The notes under the pieces: generated by a model
The model's input: the letters and a program-made list of their open reading frames with translations, nothing else
The model's database searches: none
Told to the model about the DNA's origin: nothing
NCBI GenBank assembly: GCA_025526995.1
Contig: JAHLKG010000019.1
Span: 124,001-188,000, forward strand
Source of the DNA: Powellomyces hirtus
Taxonomy: Eukaryota > Chytridiomycota > Chytridiomycetes > Spizellomycetales > Powellomycetaceae
DNA length: 64,000 bases
Direction: 5' to 3'
Program-made: the position numbers and the translations under genes
In this document: positions 41,128 to 64,000 of the stretch, in pieces
Position numbering within the stretch: position 1 is the first letter of the stretch
Layout: every line of letters starts with the position of its first letter

Positions 41128-42488
41128 ATGCCCCCTGCACTTACTCCCGCTCAACAAGCTGCTATCGTTACCGCCGTTACTGCCGGTGTTATCGCCGCTG
41201 CTCCTGTCGTTGCTGCTGCAGCTCCCGCTTGCCCCAATCGAGCTAAGACCCTTCTCAACGCACAAAAGGCTAAGCTTTCCGAATACGATGGCACCAAGTC
41301 CGCCAAGAAAATAGAGGAGTTTTGACCTCTCACAGTAACTTTTACTGGGCTCTCGCTACTCCCGCCATTCCTGCGGTTGTCGGTCCTCCTCCTGTTCCCG
41401 CAGTTCCTGCCGTACCATTGCCCATGGCCGACTACGTTGACACTCTCCAATCTTACCTTAAGGGTACTGCTCTTGAATGGTACAACACTACTTCTGCCGC
41501 AGGAGCACCTGCCGGTTGGGCAGCTTTCCAAACAGCCCTCATTACCGAATTCTTCCCTCGCAATCTTCGCAACGCGATCAAACTTAGATTGACCAACCTC
41601 GCTCTCGGGAACTCATTGGAGGAATTCGTTACAAAGTTCCAAGATGAATGTCATGAACTTGATGCCGCTTTGCGTCTCAATCCTACACAAGCTACTATTC
41701 CTGCTGCTGATATTGTTCGTATTTTTAAAGCAGATCTCCTTAAGAACCCTGTCATCGGTCACTATCTCTACAATGCGATCAATACTTTCGAAATCAATCA
41801 AAACCTCGCCGCCGCAGCTGCTGCACCCATTACCATTCAGCAAGCCATAGAAGCTGCTCGACAGGCTTTTGTCGTTCATGGATTTTCTGACAATAATCCT
41901 CTTAATACGTCTTCTCGTGGGCGCGGCGGATCCGGTCGCGGTTGTGGAAGCGGTCGTGGCCGAGGCGGTCGAGGCGGTCAACAGCGATATACTCCTTATT
42001 CCAATCCGCGAATAACCGGAATAGACAACACTGACAACCTCACTGACAACTTCAACAAACTTAATCTCATTCCATATCCACCTGGTGTGAGCCGCAACCT
42101 CATTACCTATAGACCGTCGTACAATTATCCTAGACAAGGTTATCAATCGAGAGGCCGCGGTCAACGATGTCAAGCACCAACAACACCTTGCCCAATTTGC
42201 AATCGAATGGGACACTGGTCTGCTGACTGCTGGTACAATACCGGAAATCAACAACGTGGCAATCGACGCGGCGGTTCTGGACAACGAGGCCGTGGAAATG
42301 GCCGCGGTCGAGCCGGTCAAGGCCAATCTAATCAAAACCAAAACCAAGCACAGGGGATGGCGAACAACAACATGACACAGAATCAGTTAAATCAAATTGT
42401 CACGCCGCAAGTGCAAGCGGCCATTCAAAGCACAGTTGATGTCGCTAATGCCCAACAACAACAAGTGGGTTTTCTCAACGGTCGTTAG
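41128..42488 (+). pseudogene. gag: Gypsy-1 gag (frameshifted)
   Basis: It begins MPPALTPAQQAAIVTAVTAG and runs to a stop at 41325. A different frame then carries the remaining 388 residues to 42488. The two parts meet at a run of T (41320-41323) where one T appears to be missing. The capsid-like helices (LQSYLKGTALEWYN, FQTALITEFFP, LEEFVTKFQDECHELD) are followed by an Arg/Gly-rich stretch and one CCHC zinc knuckle (CPICNRMGHWSADC). A second Arg/Gly-rich stretch and a Gln/Asn-rich tail end the protein. The 3' end overlaps the pol frame, which lies at -1 relative to gag. Confidence 0.88.
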
Positions 42489-45400
42489 AGCCCATCGGTA
42501 GCTCTGTTTGGCCTCCATATCTACCTACCGTTCAAGATGCATGGAAACCTTTGGCCACCGGATTATGGATTGCACATGGCCGTATTGGGAACAAATTTGC
42601 CCGAATATTATTCGATAGCGGAGCGACGGGAATGTTCCTTGACAAGACTTTCGTCAAAAAACACAAATTCGAAACTAGGCCTACCAAACCACAACAAATA
42701 ACTCTGGCCGACAAAAAATCTCAAATCCTCCTAGACACCGTCGTCTCCCAACCGTTAGAACTTTGGAACATTGAATCTCCTTCGCCTTTTATGGTCGGAC
42801 AAATCCCATGGCTTGTCAGCGATCTTATATACGATGCGATCATTGGAACACCTTTCTGGAATCTCTTTACGCATGCTGAACAATACTTACACAAAAAACA
42901 ACCTATTCTCCGTTTCACTAATCATTCACAGATACCAAACGCATCGCTCTCCGTCACCATCAAATGCGAACGAACATCACGAAAATGGCAACCATTAGAC
43001 TTTCTCCCTTGGAATTGTCTCTCGCACTTTGACACTATTCCATCTACGAAACAATCTGAGTTCACCAAAGCCTCTACTCATCACAATATCCAAATGATCG
43101 AAGTTACATCTAAGCGATTCAACAAAGCCTGGCGACGAACTAAATTCGAAGACAATACTGTATGCCGACTGGCTCTCAACGAAATTTCAGAGGATCCTGA
43201 ACGGTTTAAGGGAAACCCTGAACTCTTGAAAGATTCTCTGGAAAAGTATGTTGATACTCTATTCAAGGAACCGCAAGGCTTACCACCTGATCAGGGAGAA
43301 GATAATTTCCAATTTGAACTCGTTGAAGGCGCTGAACCTGTTTGGCAACCTCTTTGTCACATGAATAAGGAAGAATTAGCCGAACTGAAAAAGCAAATTC
43401 AACTGATGCTCGAGAAAGGATGGATACAGCACTCCTCAAGCCCATGGGGAGCTAGTGTTGTTTTCGCTAAGAAGAAAGATGGAGGATTACGTATTTGCTG
43501 GGACTATCGAGGTCTCAACTCCATCACAAAGAAAGATCGAACACCTCTTCCGAACATCCGTGAAATGCGCGACCGAATTCAAGGATGCGAATACTTCAGT
43601 CTCATTGATATTAAGGAAGCCTATCATTGCTTGCTCATCCGAAAGCAAGATCGGGAAAAGACCGCTATACGTACAAGATTTGGTCATTTTGAATACCTCG
43701 TCATGCCTTTCGGCTTAACCAACGCTCCTGCTGCTTTCCAACGATTAATGAACAAAATTTTTCACAAAGACTACGTCATTTTGAATACCTTGTCATGTCT
43801 TTCGGCTTAACCAACGCTCCTGCTGCTTTCCAACGATTAATGAACAAAATTTTTCACAAAGACTACGACGACTTCGTTAACTCATACCTCGACGATATCC
43901 TCATTTTCTCAAAGACACTCAAAGAACATCAGAAACATGTCGATCTAGTCCTCAAGAAGCTTGAAGAACATCAACTTTATGTCAAACCTTCCAAATGCGT
44001 CTGGGCCGTGCCCGAAGTCGAATGGTGTGGACACGTCTTGGGCCGAAATGGAATTTGCATTGCCCCGTCGAAGATCCTAGTGATCAAGGACTGGCCTAGA
44101 CCCACATCTACAAAAGGAGTTCAATCATTCCTTGGTCGCGCCAACTACTTCCTTGATTTTGTCAAAGATTATTTGAACATTGCTCTTCCATTATCCAGTA
44201 TTCAATTGGCGAAAGTTAAGTTCCAATGGGAAGCCGATCAAGAGCAAGCCTTCCAGAAACTGAAGGAAGCACTTATCAATGCGCCAGCTTTAGCAACAAT
44301 CGACGAAAGTAAACCTATCTACGTCTACACAGATTCGTCTGGCTACGCCATTGCGGGATGGATCGGACAACCATATGATGACGAGACTATACCAACCAAT
44401 CTTCCTCGTCTCGTCGGCGAATGGAAACAATTACCTCGCCTCCGACCTGTCGTTTTCTACTCTCGCAAGATGAAAGGCGCTGAGACTCGGTATCCGACAC
44501 ATGAACAAGAACTACTCGCATTAGTCAAGATGCTTGTAGCCAATAGCCCATACCTGGTTGGACGACCGTTTCGGTGCTTCAGCGATCACAAAGGCTTAGA
44601 ATTTATCCAAACCCAACCTCATCTTAGCCGAAGACAAGCTCGATGGGTCAAAATTCTACAAGAATACGATTTTACGATTCAGTACATTCCAGGGAGGTGG
44701 AATCATATTGCGGACATTCTTTCTCGAAGTGCTATTTACGCTCCACGTTGTGTCGAATGTCAAAGACGTATCGATATGCAGACTCAAATCAACAACATGA
44801 TAGATGGCATTCCTGCTATAGTCGGTACAACGATAGATCTTAGCACGACGCCAACATATTCTACCAAAGAATGGAAACAAGCTCTAGCTACAGACCCCTA
44901 TTCTGAATACCTTGTAGAGATCTGTCGGAAACCTGATCACGCAAAGACTGCAAGAGAACGACGATATACTTTCCAAGATGGAATCGCTCTACATGAAGGA
45001 CACCTTTACGTACCTGAAAGCCTACGCCCAAAAGTCTTATGACAATTTCACAATGATTTAGCTACTGGAGGTCATTTTGGCGTTAAGAAAACACTCGCCC
45101 AAATTCTCGTCGATTATTATTGGCCTAACGTTAGACAAGACGTCATGAAGTATGTCGGAACATGCAAATCCTGCCGACAATTCAAACCTGGTCATCGCCG
45201 TTACGGATTTCTACGACCACTTCCTGTTCCATTGGGAAGATGGCATACTATTGGATTTGATATCTTCTACATTGGAGACGAAGCATGTCTCGCTTGCATC
45301 GATTATCTATCAGGACGTGCTATTCTTTCAGCTGTCGACAAAAACATTGGCGGTAAAGAACTTGCTGCCGTTTTTCTGGATCGAGTATGGAAATACGTTG

Positions 45401-46344
45401 GGACTCCAAAAGTCTTCGTTACGGACCGCGAACCTCGAGCACTTTCAGATTTTTTCCTTGCTTTCGACATATTACTCGGCGTTAAGCATGAATTCGCCAC
45501 AGCTCGACATCAACAAACGGATGCAAAAGTCGAACGAGCTATTCAAACATTGAAGAGAATTTTCAAACAGTATCTCAACTACGATAGAAGCAACTGGAAG
45601 AAACTACTTCCGCTTGTCGAGTTCGCCTTCAACACTGCCCCTAGAAGCGAATATGAAGGCCAGACACCATTTGAAGTAGATCTTGGTCGTACAATCATCT
45701 TACCTGGATGGAATCCACTCCTAGAAGGACAAGAACTTCGTTTACGCGGAGTCGACAAGGTCGAGCTCGAAAGATACCATAAGGGACAAGAAGAGATAGC
45801 CCGAATCGTACGCGAAAATCTACGTCGAGCACAAGATGAATACGCTCGACAACATGACAAAGGCCGCACTCCTATCGCTTACAATATCGGAGATCTCGTC
45901 GACCTCAATCGCAAGGGTATAGACCTCGAGGTTGACATAAGAAGAGGCCCTCAATTCTCTACTATATGGATCGGACCCTACAAAGTCATCGCCAAAGGTG
46001 ATCATCCTGACACCTACGAACTTGATCTTTCGCCTTCAAAGATTAGTGGCATTTGGCCTGTCTTTCACGTTGATATCCTACGTCCTCACGCAATAGACCA
46101 ATATCCACAACGTGAAATCCAACAACCACCCGAACCAGTTGAAGTTCGTGGAGAACAAGAATGGGTTGTCGAAGACATTCTCGATGAACGTCATCATAAG
46201 CAAAACCTCCTGGTCAAATGGACAGGATGGGCCGACCCTACATGGGAACCTGAGTCTGAACTCCGAGAAACATCTGCCTACAAACGATGGCGCAGAGCAC
46301 ACCCAAACTCTTTGGCGATACAGCCAACTAGTAGAAAAAGGTAA
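42482..46344 (+). pseudogene. pol: Gypsy-1 pol: PR-RT-RNaseH-IN-chromodomain (broken)
   Basis: The frame opens inside the end of gag (-1 frame). Protease shows LFDSGATGMF. RT has WDYRGLNSITKKD, YFSLIDIKEAYH and, after the duplication, YLDDILIFSKT with the catalytic Asp pair. RNase H includes YVYTDSSGYAIAGW. Integrase has an H-H-C-C finger region ending CKSC, then the catalytic residues in FDIFYIG, VTDREPR and KVERAIQ. A C-terminal chromodomain (WVVEDILDERHHK, LLVKWTGWADPTWEP) lies at about 46159-46300. A 92-bp duplication shifts the frame in RT, and TGA at 45040-45042 replaces the CGA seen in Gypsy-2 between RNase H and the integrase finger. The two lesions make this copy non-autonomous. Confidence 0.9.
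43683..43866 (+). repeat. 92-bp tandem duplication inside RT
   Basis: 43683-43774 is repeated immediately as 43775-43866, with two C-to-T differences. It encodes the F-G-L-T-N-A-P-A-A-F-Q segment just before the Y-L-D-D box. As 92 is not a multiple of three, it shifts the frame and separates the two RT halves. Confidence 0.93.
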
Positions 46345-46925: not shown

Positions 46926-48316
46926 ACGGCATCAACTACAATGAAACCTACGCTCCGGTTGCCAAGATAGCCACCCAACGCGTCCTCCTCGCTCTCGCCG
47001 CCAGTCTAGGCTTGAAATGCCATCAAATGGATCTAGTAACCGCATTCCTGAATGGGATTGTTACCGAGACCATCCTCATCTATGCCCCTGAAGGCTCTGG
47101 CTTTCCGCCTGGGACCATCCTTTGACTCCGAAAGGCCCTTTACGGCCTGAAACAAGCCCCGCGCGAATGGTACTCCCTACTTCACAAAGAACTGACTTCT
47201 TTGGGATTCAAGCGCCTGGCAAATGACAATGCCGTCTACATCAGAACTCTACCTGAAAGTGACTCATCGCAGTACATCTCCGTCTACGTCGACGATCTCC
47301 TCATTTTCGCAAAGACCAAATCGGAAATCTCGTCAATCAAGACATCCCTGCACAATGAGTTCAACATGACAGACCTAGGCGAAGTCAACCACTACCTAGG
47401 AATGAGAGTTCGACGCGATTACTCAAGGCACGTCATCTACCTTGATCAAGAGTCATATGTAAATGACATCCTCGAGCGCTTTGGTATGCAAGATTGCAAG
47501 CCCGTCAACACTCCGATGGACCAGACCAAGCTCGAACCCTACGAAGTCAAAAATACAAAGACTTCACCTAACCTGCAAGAAGGATAATATTGCGAAATCG
47601 TTGGTTCTCTCATGTACCTGATGATATGCACCCGTCCTGACATCGCTGTCGCAGGCAGTATGCTTTCTCGCTTCGCAAGCAACCCTTCACCTCAACATCT
47701 GCAAGCTGCAAAGCGCGTTCTTCGCTACCTACGGGGAACATCAGATTACAGCCTCTGCATTGGCGGAAATAACGTCACCCTTCACGGCTACAGCGATGCC
47801 GATTGGGGAAACAACATCATTGATCGACGGTCAATCACTGGCTATCTTTTCTACATTGGAAATGCGGGCCCCATTACTTGGGCTTCGAAGCGCCAACCCA
47901 CCGTTGCTCTCTCATCTACCGAAGCTGAATACATGGCACTTTCCTTTGCCACTCAAGAGACAATTTGGCTTCGCTCACTTCTGCAAGAACTCCAAATTCC
48001 CGAATATCTCGATGAAAATGCTCGACCTACAACGATCTACGAAGACAATCAGTCATGCATCTCGTTGGCAATGAATCCCGTGCATCACGCCCGTACCAAG
48101 CATATCGACATTCGACATCACTTCATTCGTGATCACATCGACAAGGAGATTCACCTGGGGTACTTACCCACCGCTGAAATGGTAGCCGACTCACTTACGA
48201 AGCCTTTACCGGCCCCGGCTTTCAAATACCATCGCGAAAGTATGTGCATCAAGCACTACGACAACACCATCACGCCAATGACGAAAGTGTCCATGACGGA
48301 GCTCCCGAATGAGTAA
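46926..48316 (+). pseudogene. pol: Copia-A1 RT-RNase H fragment
   Basis: RT contains VTAFLNGIV, KALYGLKQAP and the catalytic box YVDDLLIFAK. The RNase H domain has GYSDADWGNN, ALSSTEAEYMAL and a TKHIDIRHHF block. The 5' two thirds of the polyprotein are missing. Two stops interrupt it, TGA at 47123-47125 and TAA at 47585-47587; both are also present in Copia-A2. Confidence 0.88.
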
Positions 48317-48353
48317 AATCCCATCATCGTGGATCGATTGCTCGGACAGGGGG

Positions 48354-48542
48354 TGTATTCAAATGTTGAGACTTGTGTACTCAACGTTTGGTCCTTACAT
48401 TAGATCCTTACTCGGATTCTCCGACTAGAACGCGTGACCACCATACCGGTAACGCTCAGAGCTGAATTGGATCACGTGTGATCACGTGATTGGAGAAAAA
48501 GTAGATTAGAACGCTCAAAGCGAGACATTACCGATAAGACTT
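48354..48542 (+). repeat. Copia-A middle LTR, left part
   Basis: It starts TGTATTCAAATGTTGAG after the purine tract and matches 59371-59545. The Copia-B insertion splits it; the right part is at 54703-54883, and the two sum to about 365 bp versus 368 bp for the intact LTR. Confidence 0.88.
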
Positions 48543-48781
48543 TGTTGGTCTGAGAGTATCTGAGTAGATGATTGAGGAAGCTTTAGGGTAGTTGACTGAG
48601 CAGAACAACGAAGTAACTTAATCCCGCTCTACTGGAGAAAAAGAGAAAAGTCCCACCATTGTATTAAGTATGGAAGGAAAACTACTTATATTGGAGTTGA
48701 TCACGTGGGTTCACGTGATCGCGTGATACGCCCTGCAATGGCGCAGTTGTGACTCAATGACAGAGTCTGTACGTGCTAACA
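48543..48781 (-). repeat. Copia-B 3' LTR
   Basis: 239 bp, about seven differences by eye from the other LTR. It contains several GTGATCACGTGA-like palindromic words, also found in Copia-A LTRs. Confidence 0.92.
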
Positions 48782-48895
48782 CCCCCACTCAGACCTGTCA
48801 GTCTGGCAGTGAGAGAGTTGCTCTATCTACTTTACTACACAGCTCCGCGCACACCCCCAAACACCCCCATTTATTACACTTTGAGAATACGAGGA

Positions 48896-49585
48896 ATGGC
48901 AAGGGTACGTCTATGAGATCCGCGCAAATGAGGCGTAAGCTCTAACTATGTGCCGGTGTAGTTGTCAGGTTCGGGCAAAGCGATGCAGACGGCGAGAAAG
49001 ACGGGACCGCCGGTAACCGCTCCTGCGATGACCACAGCTCCTGCTGTGCCGTCGTCAGTGGTGCCCTCTGCGCCACAGGGAGGCGCACCCGCTGCGGAGT
49101 TGTCCCGAGCGGAGATTCGAACGATGTCGGCGGCGCATGCCCGACAGTTCCACCGCAAGGATCGTCAAGGGGTCCTTGAACGTCACATTGAGCAGGCGAA
49201 AGACCGGGTGAAAGACCGGGCGAGGTCTGGTACGCCTCTGGGTCGCGCACGGGCGAGCGGGATGCTTGATGGACTGAGGTCCATACTAGAGGACCGGCGG
49301 AGCCGGAAGCTGGTGGTTGGGAAGGGCAAGGGTACAGCCCAGGCGAAGAAGAAGACTGCAGACAAGAAGTCTGCAGCGGAGGTGAAGAGGATGTGGGACA
49401 TCCTGGAGCGGGAAGCTCCGTATAATGATGAGGAAGAGGAGGAGGAGGAGGGGGCAGCCGAGGAGTTGGAGGGATCACCGATCTCTCCAAGCCGACGCTC
49501 ACCCTCAAGCGATGAGGATGAGGGAGGAGGGGCAGGCCCATCCTCCTTGGGGGGCATTGCTTTGGGTTCCGCAATTGCGGTGTAG
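48896..49585 (+). CDS. Spliced antisense gene inside Copia-B (unknown protein)
   Basis: Exon 1 is 48896-48904 (M-A-R). A 57-nt intron 48905-48961 has donor GTACGT, branch point CTAAC and acceptor TGTAG. Exon 2 is 48962-49585. The joined frame is about 210 residues with no stop. The N-terminus is Ala/Pro/Thr-rich. The middle is highly charged and helical (HARQFHRKDRQGVLERHIEQ, AEVKRMWDILEREAPYND), followed by a Glu run and a Ser/Gly-rich end. No known domain was recognised. It lies between the RNase H end of Copia-B and its 3' LTR, on the opposite strand, overlapping the tail of pol. The minus-strand frame here is Pro/Ser-rich and looks like its shadow. It could be a captured host gene, an accessory antisense ORF of the element, or a chance frame. 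Transcription would start in or beside the LTR (115 bp away). Confidence 0.55.
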
Positions 49586-49589
49586 ATGC

Positions 49590-51540
49590 CAAGGTAAGCC
49601 AGTGTTGTGAGTAATTCTCCTGACATTCAGCGAGTAACACTTGGGCTCGGTGTGCTTCCGTAGACGCGCCCTCGTTGCGTATTCTCTCATCAAATATATG
49701 AGTCCCGTTCGTAATCCTCAGGACAGTGTCCTTATGTTTCACAGTGGGAAAAGGCTTCGTAAAGATGTCCGCCAGTTGATCGTCCGTATTGGTGTCGATG
49801 ATTTCGATAATTTGCTTCGCGAACGAATTGCGTATAGCGTGGTACCAAACGTCGATGTGTTTGGTGCGTTGGTTGATAGCCTTAGACTGAATCAAGGCTC
49901 CGGCGCTCTGATTATTGACGTGTAGAGGGACCGGTCGAGATTTGTAATCCGGTTGAGGTCCCAAAACTTCCGCCAAGAGTTGGCGTAGCCATTTGGCTTC
50001 GTTGTGGCCGGTACTTGCAGCTATATACTCCGCTTCGGTCGTACTTTGGGCGGTGCACTTCTGCTTGCTGCTTTTCCACAGAACAGGAAACCCATTGTAA
50101 AGGGCCAAAATGCCTGTAGTGGACGTCCGGTGGGTGAGTTCTCCTGCATAATCCGCATCCGTGAATACGCGTAGGCCACGCGGATCATTTCGTTCGGATG
50201 TAAACTTGAGGGCATAATCGCGGGTACCCTTCAAATATCGGAAAATGCGCTTAACATTGTTCCAGTCGGAGTTGGTAGGTGCGGCAACACGGCGCGCAAT
50301 GTAACCGACTGCAGTGGCGATATCCCATCGCCATGTGATAGAGGCCCAAGTGAGGACCCCCACTGCTTCCTGATACATTTTCAGATTCGTGAATGGTGTC
50401 GAATCCTCCGGTTGTTGGTTACGCGCTGACACGGTGTACGGAGTGGAGACAGGATGGCAGTCGCTCATGCCAAATTGTGCAAGAGCGTCGTCGATGTACT
50501 TGACATTTGAGATTTCGAGGGTACGAACAGGAGAGTCGAAGTCATATTTGTAGACGAGACCAAGGTGACTGGTTACGCGACCTTGTTCCGTAAACTTGAA
50601 CTTGGAGTGTAGCTCCGTTTTGCTCTTCACCAGAATCTCCAAATCCTTCGCTGCAATCAGCAGGTCGTCGACGAAGACGAGAATAAGGACCAAATTGTCG
50701 TTCGACGGAGGTGTACGGTCATCTGTCGCATACTTGAAAAAGATACACGGGCATACAGAAACCGCTTCGTAGCCGAGCTTCAACAGTGCAGTCTTCAAGG
50801 TCTCATACCAAAGAAGAGGTGATTGTTTCAGGCCGTAGAGAGCTTTCAGTAGCTTCAGGACCCAATTGCCTTTGGGGTGATCCGGATCTTCGAATCCCTC
50901 AAACTGCTCGATATAGATATCCTTATCAATATCGCTGTTAAGGAAGGCGGTGACGGCGTCCATACTGTGGATGTCCAGCCCGTGCTGGACACAATACGCC
51001 AAGAAGAGGCGTAGCGCTGTGAATGGTAGCGTAGGTGAGTATGTATCACCAAAGTCGCGACCGGGTTGTTGAGAGAAGCCTTGAGCCACTGCTCTGGCTT
51101 TGAACTTGTTAAAGGTGCCATCGGGATTGACCTTTGTTCAAAAGACCCATGTTGTGCCGATCACGCGCTTGTTACGTGGACGCTTGGTGAGTTCCCATGT
51201 ACCATTGTCGACCAGGGATTGGTACTCGATGCGTGCAGCCTTGAGAAATTCCTCCTTCTGAGGGGTTTTCATCGCTTGCTTCCATGTCATGGTGTTTTCA
51301 TTGATCATTGCTTGAGTCCGCGCGCGGGCGGCGTATGCAGCGATGGGGTCATTTCGTCGTGTGCTGACATTGTAGGCGGCTACTCAATTCTCCCAGTCAT
51401 CCAATGCGATAGTATCGAGTAGTGAAAGTCAGGACTCCCACGTAGGTTCTTGATATCCCTCCCACTTCACCAAGTACTCTTTTGTGTGCACCTTACTGCG
51501 GCGCTCGTCGATAATCGCCTCCACGGTGTATTTGACGTCA
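49590..51540 (-). pseudogene. pol: Copia-B chromodomain, RT and RNase H (interrupted)
   Basis: On the minus strand, a chromodomain at 51530-51432 (YTVEAIIDERR, YLVKWEGYQEPTWES) is followed by a spacer, then RT from W-K-Q-A-M. RT has AFLNSDIDKDIYIEQ, LKALYGLKQSP and the catalytic box FVDDLLIAAK. RNase H shows FTDADYAGE, QSTTEAEYIAAS, TKHIDVWYH and ADIFTKPFP. Stops lie at 51431-51429, 51386-51384 and 51140-51138 (all TGA). The RT-RNase H part itself is open to beyond 49590, where it meets the antisense gene; the exact natural stop of pol is unclear. Confidence 0.85.
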
Positions 51541-52692
51541 TCCTCCTGACTCTCCTCGTCTAGGATCAAGATGTGCTGGATCCTGCTGATATTTGGGTTC
51601 GAGTCCCAAGTCTTCTTTGAAGATCACGTCTCGTGACACTTTGACCTTGTCAGTGATAGGATCCCAAACCAGATACCCCTTGGTACCTGAGGGTTGAGCA
51701 TAGCCAACCAAGTAAGCCTTCTTCGCTCGATTCCCCATTTTATCGCGTCCTTTGCTTGTTAGAACGGAATACGCCACGCAACCGATACGCCGAAGGTGGG
51801 CGACATCAGGACGTCGGCCAAATAAGATCTCATGCGGCGTCTTCTTGTTGATGCGGTTGTACGTAAGGGAATAGATGTATCCAGCCGCTACCAGTAGAGC
51901 AGGCCAGAATCTTCGAGGTAGTTTCGTATCCGCAAAGGTGGCGTGGACCCTGTCCAGCGCCGTGCGATGCCATCGTTCGGCAATCCCGTTTTGCTGACTC
52001 GAATAGGCCGCGGACTTTTGATGAGTGATACCATTTTGCAATAGGTACTCTAGAACCTCGCCAAAGTATTCGGTGCCTCGATCCGTACGTAGGATCTTGA
52101 TTTGTGGGTCAGTCTGTTTCTCAATCCAAGCCTTGTAGATGAGAAACTTGTCGAGTATGACTGCTGAGTCCTTTGAAGGAATAGGGAAAACAGTCACGTA
52201 TCTGGATGTGTGTTCAATGAACTCCAGCGAATAGCGTGATCCTTCGTAACCAGGGATGCGAAATGGTCCTTGTAGGTCTGAATGAATCAGCTCACAGATC
52301 TCCCTGGTTTCAACGTTACCAGGGGAGAATGGAAGACGAGCGGCTTTTCCTAACACGCAGGCTTCACAATCTTTGAAGTCGCTTAGATCCCCCACTACGG
52401 ACCAACCGTCCGTAACCGATGCCATCTTCTCCAGGACGTGTTTGCCAACGTGTCCAAGACGAGCATGAGCGAGTGTAGGAGAGACTTCGACATTGCATGC
52501 TTCTGAGTCTGAGCACAGACTTTCAGACAGCAGCGTACCTTGCGGGTAATACGCGTTGTTGCAGCGTACGCCTTTGGCAATTTCTTTGCTGTCTCGCGTG
52601 AAAATGACGTCTCCATTTGACTTGAAGAGCACGTCAACGCCTTGATCGTTGCATTTTGCTACCGATACGAGATCTCGTCGTAGTCCTGGCAC
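51538..52692 (-). pseudogene. pol: Copia-B integrase
   Basis: A frame of about 384 residues. It starts in a different frame from gag-protease, with VPGLRRDLVSVAKC as its first recognisable block. The integrase H-H-C-C finger is visible (HARLGHVG, then CEACVLGKAARLP). The catalytic core follows: IHSDLQGPF, LRTDRGTEYFGE and NGIAERWHRTAL, so D-D-E is complete. The C-terminal GKGR-type zone VAYSVLTSKGRDKMG and the strand VSRDVIFKED follow. The frame ends in GESGG at 51538, and the downstream chromodomain is in another frame, implying an indel near 51560. A second indel near 52694 separates it from protease. Confidence 0.87.
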
Positions 52693-54446
52693 ATCTCGAG
52701 CGGATTCAGATAGTCGTTAACTTCTACTGGTACCGTACCTCGAACTGTAGAGGGGAGTGATGTTTTGTCGGCAAGCATAACAGCTCTGACATCACTGTAC
52801 ACGGTTGAGTGATCCAAGGTCGCTTTGTGAGGTGTCATGTGGTCCGTAGCGCCAGAGTCGATGAGGGCTTCATACGGTTGTTCTTGGCGGACCCAGACGT
52901 GTAATGCTTCCACAGCATTTGTGCTAACAGCACCATCAGACAACTGCTTCGTCTTGTTCTTCTCCATCTCGGATTTGAACTTCTTTAACACTTCACACTC
53001 CTGTGTTCGGTGTTTAGGGTCTCCACAGGCCCAACAACCCGACTTTTGTGATTGTTGACCTTTGTTTGATGGAGTAGATTCCTTATCCTTCTTGCCGTTT
53101 GTTGACTTCTCCCCGTGGTTCTTGCCACCCTTTTGTTTCTTAGAGGCGTCAGTGTGTGCGGCACCTGGTCGCGTATCCGTTGTGGTCCCGCTAGGTTTCT
53201 TAGCCATGTTGGCGGCAATCCTGGATGCAGCGGCCTGTAAACTGCTCAAATCAGTTATGTTTTCTTCATTAGCCTGAACCAAGGCCGCGAGGTCTGGTGT
53301 TAGCACGTTGATGAAGTAATCCTGAAGGACGTAATCCGGTGTTTTCGGCAGAGAAAATGCCAGCATGTTAAACTGAGTGATGTACTCATCCATGCGGCCT
53401 TTGGGACGCAATTCCCGTAATTTCTGCAGCGAATCCCTAGTGTGGTTTTGTGGCGTGAACCGCGCCAGAAGGGCGGACCTAAAACCGGTGTTGGTTCTTC
53501 CTGAATCAACGTCTTCAAAGTCATGCCACGTTGTAATTTCGTTCCTTTTATTTGGTGAGAGCGACTGCCACCAAGTGTATGCCCATCCTGTGAGTTTCGT
53601 AGCCACAAAATCTACAAGAAACTCGGGCGGAACCATTTCGTACTTCACAACCGTCTCAATCTTGTCGATGAACGTTCGAAGTTTGACCATATTGGCTTCC
53701 CCGTTGTAAGATCCAATATCTTTCAGTGTTCCATCCACGAAAGCCTTCTCACCTCGACTGTCGACGATTTTGGTCGTCACGCTGTGTATGCTCGATGTCG
53801 GTGATGTAGGGCAGCGTTCGAATGGAGAACGTTGGTATTCCTGTTGAGCTCCAATCTCCTGATTGTACTCTATCCACGGTGCAGCGAACCCGTTGTTGCG
53901 AGTGGGTGATGGTGTGCGTACGCGCCGTTGCGCCGTACGTACTTGAGGGTTGACCTGGACGTTTACATCCTGATCCATGCGCCATTTCATTTGGAGCATT
54001 TCCGTTAGTTGGGCTAGAGAATTCTCAAGCCGATCTATCCTATCCACGTCTGCCTCACGCGGGCGGACATGCACGGTGTTCGCTGATTCCCCACTTGGGA
54101 ATGCCGCTGAAGTACTGTAGTTGATCGTTCTGTGATCATCCGTACTGCTTGATAGGGGACGGGTATCGACCTTGCCATCGCGTCGGTCGACGTTTCGGGT
54201 ACACCCTTCCAATGCGTCGTCGCCCTCGTTGGCGTTGACACTCAAAGGCGTTGGCTCTGCCAGTGTATCGTTACCGGCAGATTTCCCTCCATTGTCTGGT
54301 GATGTCCATTCACCAGGCACTCGTGCGCTTTTCTTTGCTGCACGTTCTACGGCTCGTTGTAGCGTATTGGACCCTGGGGTCTGTCGACCCGTTAGACGTC
54401 TTAACATACTACAAGTGTACCGGGGGCTCGTTCCGTTGCCTACCAA
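52659..54446 (-). pseudogene. gag: Copia-B gag-protease
   Basis: A 595-residue frame. After a polar N-terminus the UBN2/gag-type capsid region is recognisable (GEANMVKLRTFIDKIETVV, ATKLTGWAYTWWQSL, RSALLARFTPQNHTRDSLQK, MDEYITQFNMLA). A Lys-rich stretch and a CCHC knuckle follow (CWACGDPKHRTQEC). The protease shows EALIDSGATDHMTPH. The frame then shifts before the VPGL block that should lead into integrase. The first ATG lies close to the 5' LTR and primer site, as expected. Confidence 0.85.
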
Positions 54447-54448
54447 TA

Positions 54449-54463
54449 CCAGGGCTCATAACC
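54449..54463 (-). promoter_or_regulatory. Copia-B primer-binding site (tRNAiMet anticodon arm)
   Basis: Immediately inside the 5' LTR the minus strand reads GGTTATGAGCCCTGG. Its complement CAGGGCTCATAACC equals the anticodon stem-loop of fungal initiator tRNA-Met (as I recall the yeast sequence). Drosophila copia and yeast Ty5 prime from this internal position with a half-tRNA. Confidence 0.75.
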
Positions 54464-54702
54464 TGTTGGTCTGAGAGTATCTGAGTAGATGATTGAGGAA
54501 GCTTTAGGGTAGTTGACTGAGCAGAACAACGAAGTAACTTAATCCCGCTCTACTGGAGAAAAAGAGAAAAGTCCCACCGGTGTATTAAGTATGGAAGGAA
54601 AACTACTTATATCGGAGTTGATCACGTGGGTTCACGTGATCGCGTGATACGCCCTGCAATGGCACAGTTGTGACTTGATGACAGAGTCTGTACATGCTAA
54701 CA
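54464..54702 (-). repeat. Copia-B 5' LTR
   Basis: 239 bp, TG...CA on the minus strand, flanked on its outer side by the duplicated GACTT. Confidence 0.92.
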
Positions 54703-54883
54703 GACTTTAAGACAAGAAATACATGCACATACATTACATCTCCGTGCATCTGACAACGCTACATCGTCAACTGCATCACAGAAGAGCTCTGTAACTCCCC
54801 CTTACGAAGTATACTGGAGGCCACATCGAATTCAGCCAATCCTCTGCAATTCCGATAAAGTACTGGAAGTGCCGATATCTCCA
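54703..54883 (+). repeat. Copia-A middle LTR, right part
   Basis: It continues the LTR interrupted at 48542 (GACTTTAAGACAAGAAATAC onwards), matches 59558-59738 and ends ATATCTCCA. It serves as 3' LTR of A1 and 5' LTR of A2. Confidence 0.88.
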
Positions 54884-57800
54884 AAATTGAGAAACCCTTT
54901 TCTACATCAACACAATACTCACGGCGAAGTTGAAGCCCCAGTTGCCCCTCACTTTCGTCCGTCTTCCCCAACGGAGAGCACAACAACTACGAGCAGCAGA
55001 AAGAGCGATGATCGAGACGCACAACGTACATCATTCGCATACTTCAAATCTGCAATCGATGCAGTATCTACATTCGACGGGACGGGAAATCTCTCAAAAC
55101 TCGCCGACTTCATTGATCAACTCACTCTAGTCTTTCGCCTAAAACCCATATCTGAAGAAGAACAGCTCTCATTCATCTTCACGAAGCTCTCTGGCGAAGC
55201 AAAACAATGGTATCGTAATCACCAGAAAGATGCCGAACAAGGGATGGTGGAGCCCATCACAGACTGGGAATCCTTCAAGCCTCCTTTCCTCTCGCGTTAC
55301 CAACCAACCGATCACGAAGAGACTTTGCTCACTCAACTTGAAAGACTCCGACAAGGAAGTCATTCCATCTCGCAGTACAATACCTCATTCACGAAGATCA
55401 CAAGTCAGATCCCCTTGAAGGTGCCGTTTGAAATCTACAAGTGGTTCTATCTTCACGGAATGAATGAACATCATGCATTGCTCGTCAGAACTCAAAGTTT
55501 CAAGGATCTCCATGGTCTCATGGCAGCTGCCAAGAGTCTGGATAACGGAAGTAACAAGAGTAACCAAAACAACCGTTTCGCCAAGAAGAGCAAAAACATC
55601 GCGCTCGAAGCCCAACCTTCAAAGAAAGACGGCTCAAGTCACAAGAAGACCGACGCGAAGAAGACCACAGACTCGAAGAAGAGACAGAACTTCCCCTGTT
55701 GGTTATGCAATTCGAATGAACATACCCCATTCAATTGTCCCCTCAAAGCCAAGGCAGTCGAAGCCTTAAAACCCGCTGCTAATGCCAACATTGCAGAAGC
55801 ACATAACGCCACTACATTGGCTTACCTGGATTCGGGCTGCTCACAGCACATGACGAATTACATTTCCATTCTCGAATCCTACAAAGAGCACTCAACGCGC
55901 ATCAGATTTGGAAATAACGCCTTTCTCAATGCCGAAGCGAAAGGGAACGCTATCTTGAAGCTTCCAGATGGAGATGTACCTCTCACTGATGTTCTCTACG
56001 TTCCAAAACTCGCCAAGACTCTCATCTCGGTCTCCGCACTCGCCAAAGATGGAAAGAGAGTCACCTTTGAAGATGAGAGCGCTATCATTCAAGACTGCAA
56101 TGGCACTACGAATGACATCACCATACCTCTCGTTCAAGGAATGTATCACATCTCGCCAACTCTGATGGCCCTCGCTACTCAAACTCGCTCAAGGACAAAT
56201 GCGTCCAATGTACCGACACACGCGTCGAACAATACATCTACCGAATTGACAAAATGGACAAACGCGTCCAATGTACCGACACACGCGTCCGATACATCGA
56301 TTCAAGCGCTCAACCTGTCAACAGACGCTACCGGCATCTCGGTCACGCAATCTACCCCGCTCCAAGCCACGTCGGAGGGGCCGGCCGCCCCAAATGGGGG
56401 GCCAGCCGGCCCCATACTCTCCAGTGAGGGGGCTGGCCGCCCCAATTTGGGGCTGGCCAGCCCCCCACTGGAGAGTGAGAGTTGTGGGTGCTGTGGTGGG
56501 GGGCCGGCCGCCCCAAAGGCATCGGATGATGCCGAGGATGGTGCCCCCTCGGGGCCACCATCCGCCGATGCCGCCGTCGCCGCTGCTTTGGCGGCTTCTT
56601 CTGGGGCTGGTTCTGGTCCCTCTTCTCCTGTCAACGAAGGAACCCTCTGGCATCACCGATTGGGCCATCCTGGCACTCACATCATGAAGCAACTCAAGCT
56701 CCCAATGACCAACGAAGTCTGCAAAGGTTGCCAGTTTGGTAAGCACAAGCGCTCACCATTCAACGGTACGATGACACGGTCCAAGATGCCACTCGATCGC
56801 CTACATTTCGACCTAAACGGTCCGCACATACCCGCGGTTGGCGATGAGAAATATGCCCTCGTTGTGATCGATGACTATTCACGCTTCACATGGATCTTCT
56901 TCTTGAAGACGAAGAGCGAATCTACTGCAAAATTGATTGAATTCATCAATTTCATCGAAAATCAGACCAACGAACGGGTCAGACAACTTCATTCCGATCG
57001 AGGGGGGGAGTTTGTCAATCACGATCTGAAAGAATTCATTTCGAAAAAGGGCATTCTGCACGAACTCACCGCTGCAGATTCCCCACAGTCCAACAGTGTA
57101 GCTGAAAGGTTCAACCTCACCCTGTTCAACACCATTCGTTCATTGGAACACTCATACGGCATCCCGAAACAACTCTGGACCGAGTTAGCGGCTACATCAG
57201 TCTACTTACGGAATCGTCTACCCCACAAGTCCAATAACAACATTTCGCCGTACGAATGGCTCAACGGCGAAGAGCCCTCACTTTCTCACCTTCATGTGAT
57301 TTGGGCCGATGCCTTCGTGCATCTCGTCAAGAGAAAACAAGTCTCAAAGTTGGCACCGCGCGCCACACGTCTCAAACTCATCGGTTACGAATTTGACAGC
57401 GCTTACCGCTGTTGGGATGACAACCGTCAAGAAATAATCATTTGTCGCGATGTAACGTTCGACGAAACCCCAGCACTCGAACTAGCAAAAGACTACATCC
57501 CGCCCGAAGAACTCTACGAAGTTGAAGAGATTCTCGACTCACGTGATCGCCCGGAAGGCTCCGAATTCCTCTGCAAATGGCTAGGATTCAAAGACAAAGA
57601 CAATACATGGGAACCGCTCGAAAATGTCAATCACTTGACAGTCTTCGCTGACTACATCAACGAGAAGACAGCGATTGCTCTTTCGGCTGCAAGTACCAAA
57701 GAACCCCAAACCTATAAACAAGCGCTCTCATCAGATGATGCGCCGAAGTGGACCGAGGCCATAAATGCCGAATTGAAGTCCCTTCATACCAACGATACAT

Positions 57801-59333
57801 GGGAAGTCATTAACCCCAAATCCTTACCGCACAATCAACGGCCCATCCGCACCAAATGGGTATTCAAGATCAAGTGAGACCTGAATGGTCTACCCCAACG
57901 ATACAAGGCCCGGCTTGTAGTGAAAGGCTTCCAACAACGCTACGATATTGACTATAACGAAACCTACGCTCCGGTTGCCAAGATAGCCACCCAACGCGTC
58001 CTCCTCGCTCTCGCCGCCAGTCTAGGCTTGAAATGCCATCAAATGGATCTAGTAACCGCATTCCTGAATGGGATTGTTACCAAGACCATCCTCATCTATG
58101 CCCCTGAAGGCTCTGGCTTTCCGCCTGGGACCATCCTTTGACTCCGAAAGGCCCTTTACGGCCTGAAACAAGCCCCGCGCAAATGGTACTCCCTACTTCA
58201 CAAAGAACTGACTTCTTTGGGATTCAAGCGCCTGGCAAATGACAATGCCGTCTACATCAGAACTCTATCTGAAAGTGACTCATCGCAGTACATCTCCGTC
58301 TACGTCGACGATCTCCTCATTTTCGCAAAGACCAAATTGGAAATCTTGTCAATCAAGACATCCCTGCACAACGAGTTCAACATGACAGACCTAGGCGAAG
58401 TCAACCACTACCTAGGAATGAGAGTTCGATGCGATTACTCAAGGCACGTCATCTACCTCGATCAAGAGTCATATGTAAATGACATCCTCGAGCGCTTTGG
58501 TATGCAAGATTGCAAGCCCGTCAACACTCCGATGGACCAGACCAAGCTCGAACCCTACGAAGTCAAAAATACAAAGACTTCACCTAACCTGCAAGAAGGA
58601 TAATATTGCGAAATCGTTGGTTCTCTCATGTACCTGATGATATGCACCCGTCCTGACATCGCTGTCGCAGGCAGTATGCTTTCTTCGCTTCGCAAGCAAC
58701 CCTTCACCTCAACATCTGCAAGCTGCAAAGCGCGTTCTTCGCTACCTACAGGGAACATCAGATTACAGCCTCTGCATTGGCGGAAATAACGTCACCCTTC
58801 ACGGCTACAGCGATGCCGATTGGGGAAACAACATCATTGATCGACGGTCAATCACTGGCTATCTTTTCTACATTGGAAATGCGGGCCCCATTACTTGGGC
58901 TTTGAAGCGCCAACCCACCGTTGCTCTCTCATCTACCGAAGCTGAATACATGGCACTTTCCTTCGCCACTCAAGAGACAATTTGGCTTCGCTCACTTCTG
59001 CAAGAACTCCAAATTCCCGAATATCTCGATGAAAATGCTCGACCTACAACGATCTACGAAGACAATCAGTCATGCATCTCGTTGGCAATGAATCCCATGC
59101 ATCACGCCTGTACCAAGCACATCGACATTTGACATCACTTCATTCGTGATCACATCGACAAGGAGATTCACCTGGAGTACTTACCCACCGCTGAAATGGT
59201 AGCCGACTCACTTACGAAGCCTTTACCGGCCCCGGCATTCAAATACCATCACGAAAGCATGTGCATCAAGCACTACAACAACACCATCACGCCAATGACG
59301 AAAGCGTCTATGACGGAGCTCCCGAATGAGTAA
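54869..59333 (+). pseudogene. gag-pol: Copia-A2 gag-pol polyprotein with internal chromodomain
   Basis: The first 1002 codons are open (54869-57877), though the frame has no ATG before the capsid region. Order: gag capsid (FSFIFTKL-like then SGEAKQWYRN, FLSRYQPTDHEETLL), CCHC knuckle CWLCNSNEHTPFNC, protease YLDSGCSQHMTN, a low-complexity insert with a GC-rich hairpin (56340-56635), integrase finger (HHRLGHPG, CKGCQFGKH) and core (HFDLNGPH, LHSDRGGEF, VAERFNLTL). A chromodomain follows at 57514-57650 (YEVEEILDSRD, FLCKWLGF, NTWEPLENV), then RT (YVDDLLIFAK) and RNase H. Stops: TGA 57875, TGA 58139 and TAA 58601 (the last two shared with A1), TGA 59130 where A1 has CGA, and a one-base insertion near 58685. 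Confidence 0.9.
56377..56476. repeat. GC-rich palindromic insert in Copia-A2
   Basis: Two adjacent hairpins. 56377-56413 has GGGGCCGGCCGCCCC paired with a GGCCAGCCGGCCCC arm. 56416-56476 has arms of about 30 bp (ACTCTCCAGTG ... CCACTGGAGAGT) around CCCCAATTTGGGG. The core word GGCCGGCCGCCCC or GGCTGGCCGCCCC recurs four times up to 56520. It is translated in frame as a Gly/Pro/Ala-rich linker between protease and integrase. The composition is unlike the rest of the element, suggesting an inserted palindromic repeat. Confidence 0.75.
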
Positions 59334-59370: not shown

Positions 59371-59738
59371 TGTATTGGAATGTTGAGAGTTGCGTACTCA
59401 ACGTTTGGTCCTTACATTAGATCTTTACTTGGATTCTCCGACTAGAACGCGTGACCACCATACCGGTAACGCTAAGAGCTGAATTGGATCACGTGTGAAC
59501 ACGTGATTGGAGAAAAAAAGGTAGATTAGAACGCTCGAAGCGAGACATTACCGATAAGACTTTAAGACAAGAAATACATTCACATACATTACATCTCCGT
59601 GCATCTGACATCGCTACATTGTCAATTGCATCACAGAAGAGCTCTGTAACCCCCTCTTACAAAGTATACTGGAGGCCACATCGAATTCGGCCAATCCTCT
59701 GCATTTCCGAAAAAGTACTGGAAACGCCGATATCTACA
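59371..59738 (+). repeat. Copia-A2 3' LTR
   Basis: 368 bp, TGTATTGG ... ATATCTACA, the only uninterrupted Copia-A LTR in the window. It contains the target word AAGACTTTAAGAC that Copia-B used in the middle LTR. Confidence 0.85.
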
Positions 59739-62136: not shown

Positions 62137-64000
62137 TTACCTTTTTCTACTAGTTGGCTGTATCGCCAAAGAGTTTGGGTGTGCTCTGCGCCATCGTTCG
62201 TAGGCAGATGTTTCTCGGAGTTCAGACTCAGGTTCCCATGTAGGGTCGGCCCATCCTGTCCATTTGACCAGGAGGTTTCGCTTATGATGACGTTCATCGA
62301 GAATGTCTTCGACAACCCATTCTTGTTCTCCACGAACTTCGACTGGTTCGGGTGGTTGTTGGATTTCACGTTGTGGATATTGGTCTATTGCGTGAGGACG
62401 TAGGATATCAACGTGAAAGACAGGCCAAATGCCACTAATCTTTGAAGGCGAAAGATCAAGTTCGTAGGTGTCAGGATGATCACCTTTGGCGATGACTTTG
62501 TAGGGTCCGATCCATATAGTAGAGAATTGAGGGCCTCTTCTTATGTCAACCTCGAGGTCTATACCCTTGCGATTGAGGTCGACGAGATCTCCGATATTGT
62601 AAGCGATAGGAGTGCGGCCTTTGTCATGTTGTCGAGCGTATTCATCTTGTGCTCGACGTAGATTTTCGCGTACGATTCGGGCTATCTCTTCTTGTCCCTT
62701 ATGGTATCTTTCGAGCTCGACCTTGTCGACTCCGCGTAAACAAAGTTCTTGTCCTTCTAGGAGTGGATTCCATCCAGGTAAGATGATTGTACGACCAAGG
62801 TGTACTTCGAATGGTGTCAGGCCTTCATATTTGCTTCTAGGAGCAGTGTTGAAGGCGATCTTGACAAGCGGAAGACTTTTGGAGTCCCGACGTATTTCCA
62901 TACTCGATCCAGAAAAACGGCAGCAAGTTCTTTACCGCCAATGTTTTTGTCGACAGCTGAAAGAATAGCACGTCCTGATAGATAATCGATGCAAGCGAGA
63001 CATGCTTCGTCTCCAATGTAAAAGATATTAAATCCAATAGTATGCCATCTTCCAAGTGGAACAGGAAGTGGTCGTAGAAATCCGTAACGGCAATGACCAG
63101 GTTTGAATTGTCGGCAGGATTTGCATGTTCCGACATACTTCATGACGTCTTGTCTAACGTTAGGCCAATAATAATCGACAAGAATTCGGGCGAGTGTTTT
63201 CTTAATGCCGAGATGACCTCCAGTAGCTAAATCATCGTGAAATTGTCGTAAGACTTTTGGGCGTAGGCTTTCAGGTACGTAAAGGTGTCCTTCATGTAGA
63301 GCGATTCCATCTTGGAAAGTATATCGTCGTTCTCTTGCAGTCTTTTCGTGATCAGGTTTCCGACAGATCTCTTCAAGGTATTCAGAATAGGGGTCTGTAG
63401 CTAGAGCTTGTTTCCATTCTTCGGTAGAATATGTTGGCGTCGTGCTAAGATCTATCGTTGTACCGACTATAGCAGGAATGCCATCTATCATGTTGTTGAT
63501 TTGAGTCTGCATATCGATACGTCTTTGACATTCGACACAACGTGGAGCGTAAATAGCACTTCGAGAAAGAATGTCCGCAATATGATTCCACCTCCCTGGA
63601 ATGTACTGAATCGTAAAATCGTATTCCTGTAGAATTTCGACCCATCAAGCTTGTCTTCGGCTAAGATGAGGTTGGGTTTGGATAAATTCTAAGCCTTTGT
63701 GATTGCTGAAGCACCGAAACGGTCGTCCAACCAGGTATGGTCTATTGGCTACAAGCATCTTGACTAATGCGAGTAATTCTTGTTCATGTGTCGGATACCG
63801 AGTCTCAGCACCCTTCATCTTGCGAGAGTAGAAAATGACAGGTCGGAGGCAAGGTAATTGTTTCCATTCGCCGACGAGACGAGGAAAATTGGTTGGTATA
63901 GTCTCGTCATCATATGGTTGTCCGATCCATCCCGCAATGGCGTAGCCAGACGAATCTGTGTAGACGTAGATAGGTTTACTTTCGTCGATTGTTGCTAAAG
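62137..64000 (-). pseudogene. pol: Gypsy-2 pol (RNase H, integrase, chromodomain), broken
   Basis: From the window end on the minus strand: RNase H (VYTDSSGYAIAGW), a TGA at 63647-63645 replacing the CGA of Gypsy-1, the integrase finger region with CKSC, and then the core. Three defects affect the integrase. The first catalytic Asp codon reads AAT (Asn) at 63029-63027. Sequence equivalent to Gypsy-1 45417-45609 is deleted (junction near 62871/62872), removing the other two catalytic residues and shifting the frame. The frame then resumes at VKIAFNTAPRS. The C-terminal chromodomain (WVVEDILDERHHK, LLVKWTGW) is intact, ending at 62137. Conversely, the codon that is TGA in Gypsy-1 at 45040 is still CGA here, so each copy decayed independently. 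Confidence 0.9.

Follow-up and report, generated by a model that had tools for sequence, protein, structure and literature searches.

The DNA analysed here (the window, 64,000 nucleotides; C19:124001-188000, contig JAHLKG010000019.1 of the fungus Powellomyces hirtus) contains Copia-A2, a copy of Copia-A, a long terminal repeat (LTR) retrotransposon of Ty1/Copia order in which a cage-bearing chromodomain forms the end of the integrase, directly after the SH3-like domain (Table 1). In a reading frame of 1058 aa, counted stop to stop from 54701, the Pfam domains follow one another as Gag, Pol_BBD, gag_pre-integrs (residues 586-626), rve, SH3_retrovirus and Chromo, after which the reverse transcriptase (RT) begins. 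The Gag is of Ty3 type: Retrotrans_gag matched residues 102-182 (E=3.3e-14) in addition to Ty3_capsid, and the Copia-type Gag profile PF14223 had no match in the frame at E≤0.01. A preliminary description made from the letters of the window had placed a chromodomain in the Copia order, after integrase and before RT, at 57514-57650. Its span encloses the Pfam match, and the motifs it quoted (YEVEEILDSRD, FLCKWLGF and NTWEPLENV) are present in the translation. It had missed the Ty3-type Gag and a second chromodomain-bearing Copia element on the minus strand, Copia-C. It had also called the polyprotein open, which is accurate through the chromodomain; a stop at 57877, early in RT, is followed by frames interrupted by further stops (ends at 58141, 58603 and 59132), and the window copy is therefore not an intact polyprotein.

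A profile search covering residues about 880-930 gave the Chromo match listed in Table 1, which spans 42 of the 53 profile positions. Searching PDB sequences with Copia-A2 returned 52 distinct sequences at E≤0.001, among them CBX1/HP1 (1ap0, E=3.2e-10), and aligned the candidate aromatic cage, Y883, W904 and F907, with the aromatic cage residues of CBX1. The three residues are identical in all 30 Copia-A copies compared, in agreement with the earlier statement that the cage positions are filled by Y, W and F. Modelling, proposed in the same description, gave a predicted fold that matches chromodomains bound to histone H3 trimethylated at lysine 9 (H3K9me3) in a structure comparison. Because Pfam, PDB sequences, predicted fold and other copies concur, a chance match is excluded. 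When chromodomains were aligned by profile, the other Copia families and environmental relatives were likewise aromatic at all three positions; among the aligned Copia rows, P0003 and P0004, both degenerate and from P. hirtus, were the only ones to have lost the third. In its three cage aromatics, the Copia-A module agrees with type I chromodomains as defined in the available passages of PMC6317226. It resembles HP1/CBX chromodomains in sequence (CBX1), predicted fold and cage residues; unlike them, it is part of a retrotransposon polyprotein and had no matching chromo shadow domain. The module is under purifying selection, the ratio of nonsynonymous to synonymous substitution rates (dN/dS) being 0.21 (bootstrap 0.09-0.40) over residues 883-937 in the 30 Copia-A copies ranked closest to, and including, the window copy. 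In the same copies, the SH3 domain had a dN/dS of 0.33 and the start of RT one of 0.13.

Table 1. Features of Copia-A2 and of the elements nested around it (window positions).
Feature	Position	Strand	Remarks
Copia-A2 polyprotein, open part	54869-57877	+	1002 aa; terminates early in RT
Ty3-type Gag capsid	55052-55540 (residues 62-224)	+	Pfam Ty3_capsid, E=3e-17
Pol_BBD	55823-56053 (residues 319-395)	+	Pfam, E=9.7e-19
Integrase catalytic core, rve	56789-57085 (residues 641-739)	+	Pfam, E=1.4e-13
Integrase SH3-like domain, SH3_retrovirus	57266-57472 (residues 800-868)	+	Pfam, E=3.6e-19
Chromo	57515-57637 (residues 883-923)	+	Pfam, E=6.3e-13; 48.9 bits, cut-off 25.1
Predicted C-terminal helix after Pfam core	57638-57697 (residues 924-943)	+	AlphaFold2, model residues 134-153
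Remaining RT-ribonuclease H (RNase H) region of Copia-A2	57878-59333	+	Several stops; assigned via A1 and other A copies
3' LTR of Copia-A2	59381-59738	+	TG...CA; ends by eye
Truncated Copia-A1, RT/RNase H end	46935-48363	+	97% identity with A2 across 1613 aligned columns, reaching into LTR
LTR common to A1 and A2, first part	48364-48542	+	Interrupted by Copia-C
LTR common to A1 and A2, second part	54703-54883	+	Continues beyond Copia-C
Copia-C element	48543-54702	-	Inserted in LTR common to A1 and A2; TG...CA ends
Copia-C LTRs	48543-48781 and 54464-54702	-	97% identical
Chromodomain of Copia-C copy	51432-51530	-	Frame differs from integrase frame; stop inside

The module recurs in the genome, which was searched as 29.26 Mb in 60 contigs; all copy searches scored the best candidates only, and the place counts rest on those. 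A 203-residue probe (SH3, chromodomain and RT start) found Copia-A at 101 near-full-length places, 75-100% identical, retained from 151 matches after removal of fragments, members of other families and C3:1109652, a 65% row that contains stops; open frames of at least 1600 aa occur at 9 of these places. Failure to match a chromodomain profile, or absence of the segment from all other Copia-A copies, had been named in advance as grounds for abandoning the claim; neither was the outcome, because chromodomain profiles matched and 101 places carry the segment. Three further Copia families, B, C and E, carry a chromodomain between SH3_retrovirus and RVT_2. In Copia-B (34 places, from 143 matches) the Chromo match lies at locus L039 (C2:1646000-1653500; E=8.7e-10). 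Two frames overlap at that locus, one encoding Gag and Pol_BBD (590 aa) and the other integrase, chromodomain and RT (912 aa); this arrangement, unlike the single long frame of Copia-A, suggests a frameshift. Copia-C was counted by RT at 86 places (from 132 matches, after removal of fragments, members of other families and C8:682865, a 77% row that contains stops). Its chromodomain is in frame in copy L055 (Pfam E=4.5e-8), and the motif is present in 11 of 12 excised loci. In Copia-E, Chromo matched at L002 and L003 (E about 3e-17); L001-L003 are the top three of the 150 genome Chromo matches scored, and degenerate relatives of this chromodomain lie at L006, L008, L071, L072 and L073. The integrase (SH3/rve) lies upstream of RVT_2 in L039, L055, L002 and the proteins P0005, P0006 and P0007, with RVT_2 matched in all of these (E=1.8e-66, 2.8e-55 and 7e-55 for the B, C and E loci); for family A, the RVT_2 RT was identified through its relative P0004 from P. 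hirtus (E=3e-48) and rows of the genome RT search. Copia-A, B and C have Ty3_capsid/Retrotrans_gag and not PF14223, and thus depart from a usual, though not defining, Copia trait. No Gag Pfam match was obtained for Copia-E at E≤0.1 in two pieces.

Relatives were found outside this genome assembly by three protein searches (32, 68 and 12 hits, most without a name). The named relatives are P. hirtus proteins, 64-87% identical for family A and 95% and 51% identical for family B; the nearest named Copia elements without the module are from Phytophthora and plants. Chromo and Copia domains occur together in 21 hits (P0001, P0002, P0004-P0008, P0033-P0040 and P0097-P0102), which derive from P. hirtus and from ENA, JGI and other contigs. 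A Gag domain is present in 11 of the 21, Retrotrans_gag every time, and the other 10 had no Gag match; the 61 hits with PF14223 include no Chromo in the precomputed domain columns. Shared descent makes these counts non-independent. The Ty3-type Gag points to module exchange between the two large LTR superfamilies. P0033 is filed under a Ktedonobacteraceae metagenome-assembled genome, presumably through eukaryotic contamination, and the P. hirtus records P0001, P0002, P0004, P0097 and P0101 carry the NCBI name 'DNA-directed DNA polymerase', which looks like misannotation. The metagenome proteins P0041 and P0042 have about nine or more tandem chromodomain stretches and a chromo shadow domain (precomputed Pfam). 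Scanning IMG/VR with the alignment labelled A1 gave two loci; at one of them, L088 4001-4189 on a 132-kb contig, a protein with a chromodomain is encoded (Chromo E=2.6e-10), and the scanned stretch showed Chromo alone and no Copia integrase.

In the window, Copia-A1 and Copia-A2 form a tandem with a common LTR into which Copia-C is inserted (Table 1). Copia-C is flanked by the target-site duplication GACTT (48538-48542 and 54703-54707; identified by eye), and the LTR identities (97% for C, 93% for A) fit an order of events in which the A tandem arose first and Copia-C was inserted later. A Gypsy element lies upstream (41322-46341), with a Chromo match just below the cut-off (24.7 versus 25.1 bits), and a Gypsy integrase end lies downstream (62137-62901; Chromo 23.8 bits). 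Such Gypsy-like elements with weak Chromo matches, within about 10 kb on both sides, are what would lend credit to an artefact, whether a chance match, a local fusion confined to a single copy, or Gypsy and Copia pieces wrongly joined in the assembly. That explanation is next to impossible given the strength of the match (E=6e-13), the 101 places, the three further families and the presence of the module at the same place in independent metagenome and P. hirtus contigs; recurrence across places and contigs refutes it.

Among retrotransposons, chromodomains are best known from Ty3/Gypsy elements. In the passages available, a large plant survey (Neumann 2019, PMC6317226) puts their frequency at 94% of chromoviruses, reports none from the remaining LTR groups and rates them as a highly reliable classification feature; a 2011 fungal survey ties them to Gypsy in the 12 of its 18 mentions seen (PMC3248453). 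Copia-A resembles the Ty3/Gypsy chromoviruses in its Ty3-type Gag and in the chromodomain at the integrase C-terminus, and families A, B and C share genomic islands with RVT_1 elements. Unlike Ty3/Gypsy elements, which have the order RT-RNase H-integrase and a Gypsy RT, the fungal elements have integrase before an RVT_2 RT, and their integrase has Copia-like SH3_retrovirus and gag_pre-integrs matches. The preliminary description was right that the module occurs outside Gypsy; its occurrence in Copia had already been described, in the diatom Ty1/Copia element CoDi-A, for which the relevant passage reports that the C-terminus of the integrase carries a putative chromodomain, found at that time in no other Ty1/Copia element (Llorens 2009, PMC2774666). 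In its available passages, a paper from 2024 (PMC11541908) likewise cites the CoDi elements of diatoms as the example in Pseudoviridae, and the word 'chromodomain' is absent from the main text of PMC6875170. No report of a fungal Copia chromodomain was found in the open literature searched; papers beyond it may contain one. A Copia chromodomain is thus of a kind already known, and the fungal host, the Ty3-type Gag, the presence of four such families within a single genome and their contrast with Copia-D, described below, appear to be new.

CoDi-A, which belongs to Branch 1 of Ty1/Copia, shares with Copia-A, by its published description, the Copia order and a putative integrase C-terminal chromodomain (PMC2774666), from which one could argue for a single old lineage of chromodomain Copia elements in diatoms and fungi with no separate acquisition. 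The comparison, made by description, covers order, position and host (diatoms for CoDi-A); a Ty3-type Gag is present in fungal A, B and C and in 11 environmental elements. This single-lineage account is improbable: no named diatom protein is among the 32, 68 and 12 hits (most of them nameless), and, as noted, the closest module-free Copia elements with a name are from Phytophthora and plants. In a tree of integrase and RT with 46 rows, which like the RT-only tree includes no CoDi sequence (18 rows with and 28 without chromodomain; a chosen subset of hits, 5 of 51 requested rows lacking one part), the chromodomain elements grouped as A, B and environmental relatives (90/80) and as C and E (87/96). 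Forcing the 18 together gave an approximately unbiased test value (p-AU) of 0.066, by which a single clade is neither shown nor rejected. The tree built from RT alone (51 of the 53 requested rows) gave three groups with a weak backbone, and Copia-C and Copia-E lie on long branches in the trees. The chromodomain tree, with 54 columns, is too short for settling the origin of the module. Of all chromodomains compared, that of Copia-A scores best, by a small margin, against the Gypsy row P0032; Copia-B scores slightly higher against the non-Gypsy repeats of P0041, Copia-C is nearest to the window Gypsy, and the environmental rows have mixed affinities. Copia-E scores higher against non-Gypsy rows and clusters with P0041 and with L082, an exon of the host HP1 gene (Shimodaira-Hasegawa-like approximate likelihood ratio test 88). 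Its chromodomain (L002, L003) and that exon (L082/L087) have the stretch IKWKGYPSSDNTWE in common, so the Copia-E chromodomain may represent a separate capture from a host gene.

The genomic distribution of the chromodomain families was compared with that of Copia-D (L047), which has an ordinary Copia Gag (Retrotran_gag_2) and no Chromo match at E≤0.01. Membership of Copia-D was decided on RT score and frame and not for each copy individually, and 130 of 150 matches were kept (left out were 12 B rows, 3 A rows, C1:1195454, C1:1200584, C1:1205714, C16:525229 and C17:65141; frames beside C1:1195454 and C1:1200584, L052, have PF14223 and no Chromo). It is present on 27 contigs, 14 of which have one block each of at least 4 copies (for example, C8:380402-440935, C12:336789-397491 and C26:138460-191946); these 14 blocks hold 107 of the 130 places, with 23 outside, and 95% of Copia-D lies within 20 kb of another D. 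From clustering, the blocks look like centromere cores. The comparison sets were 150 RVT_1 matches (150/150 kept and treated as Gypsy without one-by-one checking, so that RTs of long interspersed nuclear elements could be included) and 102 of 156 listed kinases (neighbouring exons dropped by hand); contig sizes were partly approximated (27.3 of 29.26 Mb). The D blocks (742 kb) contain 4 of 221 A+B+C copies, 1 of 150 RVT_1 matches and none of the 102 kinases, and their 60-kb flanks (1623 kb) contain 46, 23 and 1, respectively, with binomial p values of 1.7e-4 for A+B+C and 0.003 for RVT_1; the tests assume independent copies, which nested and tandem copies violate. The remaining 171 A+B+C copies are in neither. 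Proximity (within 20 kb) to an RVT_1 match was found for 62% of A, 59% of B and 69% of C, compared with a random mean of 14%, 7% of kinases and 18% of D. The A/B/C distribution is thus shared with RVT_1 elements, mostly Gypsy-like. Of the long-frame, probably young, Copia-A copies, 7 of 9 have an RVT_1 match within 20 kb, and no listed kinase is that close to any of the 9.

Comparable patterns are described elsewhere. In the passages available for Physcomitrium patens (PMC7466625), the Copia element RLC5 forms one centromere-like cluster per chromosome, as Copia-D does here, and the chromodomain Gypsy element RLG1 occupies dispersed silent islands resembling those of A, B and C; unlike in P. 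patens, the island elements here include chromodomain Copia, and the centromere assignment comes from clustering only. Copia elements of Ganoderma leucocontextum are confined to predicted centromeres, cf. Copia-D; compared by description, they are listed with GAG, INT, RT and RH, and a chromodomain is not reported in the available text (PMC10817607).

Considered together, the fold match, the host HP1 gene (C12:791270-791848; Chromo and Chromo_shadow matches), a Pre-SET match in the host genome (one was found, as expected for an H3K9 methyltransferase gene) and the genomic distribution are best explained by targeting to methylated histones, as the preliminary description had predicted. The Copia-A chromodomain is therefore likely to be a reader of H3K9-methylated chromatin that steers Copia integration. 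By analogy with the Ty3/Gypsy chromovirus chromodomain, it would stay on the integrase after polyprotein processing, bind H3K9-methylated host histone tails and guide the integrase into heterochromatin, at the flanks of centromere-like blocks and in transposon islands. Chromodomain and integrase would be released together, as the preliminary description also proposed; no cleavage site was identified. Ty1 and Ty5 bear targeting determinants of their own at the place equivalent to the Copia-A chromodomain.

Several observations weigh against this interpretation. The evidence from distribution is correlational, and 77 of 101 Copia-A copies are in neither a D block nor a flank. For the two remaining long-frame A copies, on C1, the distance to any listed RVT_1 match exceeds 600 kb, although Copia-D copies lie 17 and 40 kb away from them. 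Loss of gene-near insertions, nesting and tandem duplication can yield islands even if integration is untargeted; the D blocks reduce the space available to other elements; and the chromodomain is not the only difference between Copia-D and families A, B and C, which also differ from it in Gag and lineage. For the Pfam core alone, dN/dS was 0.35 with a wide interval (0.14-0.84; 30 Copia-A copies), and H3K9-methyl binding and chromatin targeting are themselves predictions from sequence, fold and distribution. A genuine chromodomain might instead contact DNA or cDNA, or serve in multimerisation or stability, with the islands arising from selection against gene-near insertions, which clusters any element in gene-poor DNA; the Tf1 chromodomain reportedly promotes binding to cDNA, going by the title of a 2009 paper by Chatterjee. 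We regard such a non-reader role as unlikely, although it deserves some weight, since the cage positions are kept in A (30/30), in the other families and in environmental relatives, Copia-D is distributed differently in the same genome, and long-frame, probably young A copies are in islands too.

Beyond the reader function of the module, a broader scenario is possible and is offered tentatively: chytrid-like fungi and environmental hosts would harbour a mosaic lineage in which a Ty3/Gypsy-type Gag and an integrase chromodomain are joined to a Copia pol. The chromodomain would have been captured or swapped more than once (Gypsy-leaning in A and environmental elements, HP1-like in E), and its presence or absence would sort families into heterochromatin islands and centromere flanks (with) or centromere cores (without). 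If true, this would constitute a natural experiment on chromatin targeting inside one superfamily. Copia families A, B, C and E and their environmental relatives break the rule that chromodomains belong to chromoviruses only, and exchange of modules between LTR superfamilies matters for classifiers that rely on a single domain. Because the same genome has Copia elements with and without the module at different chromosomal sites, nature offers a way to study whether LTR retrotransposons are redirected by a chromodomain.
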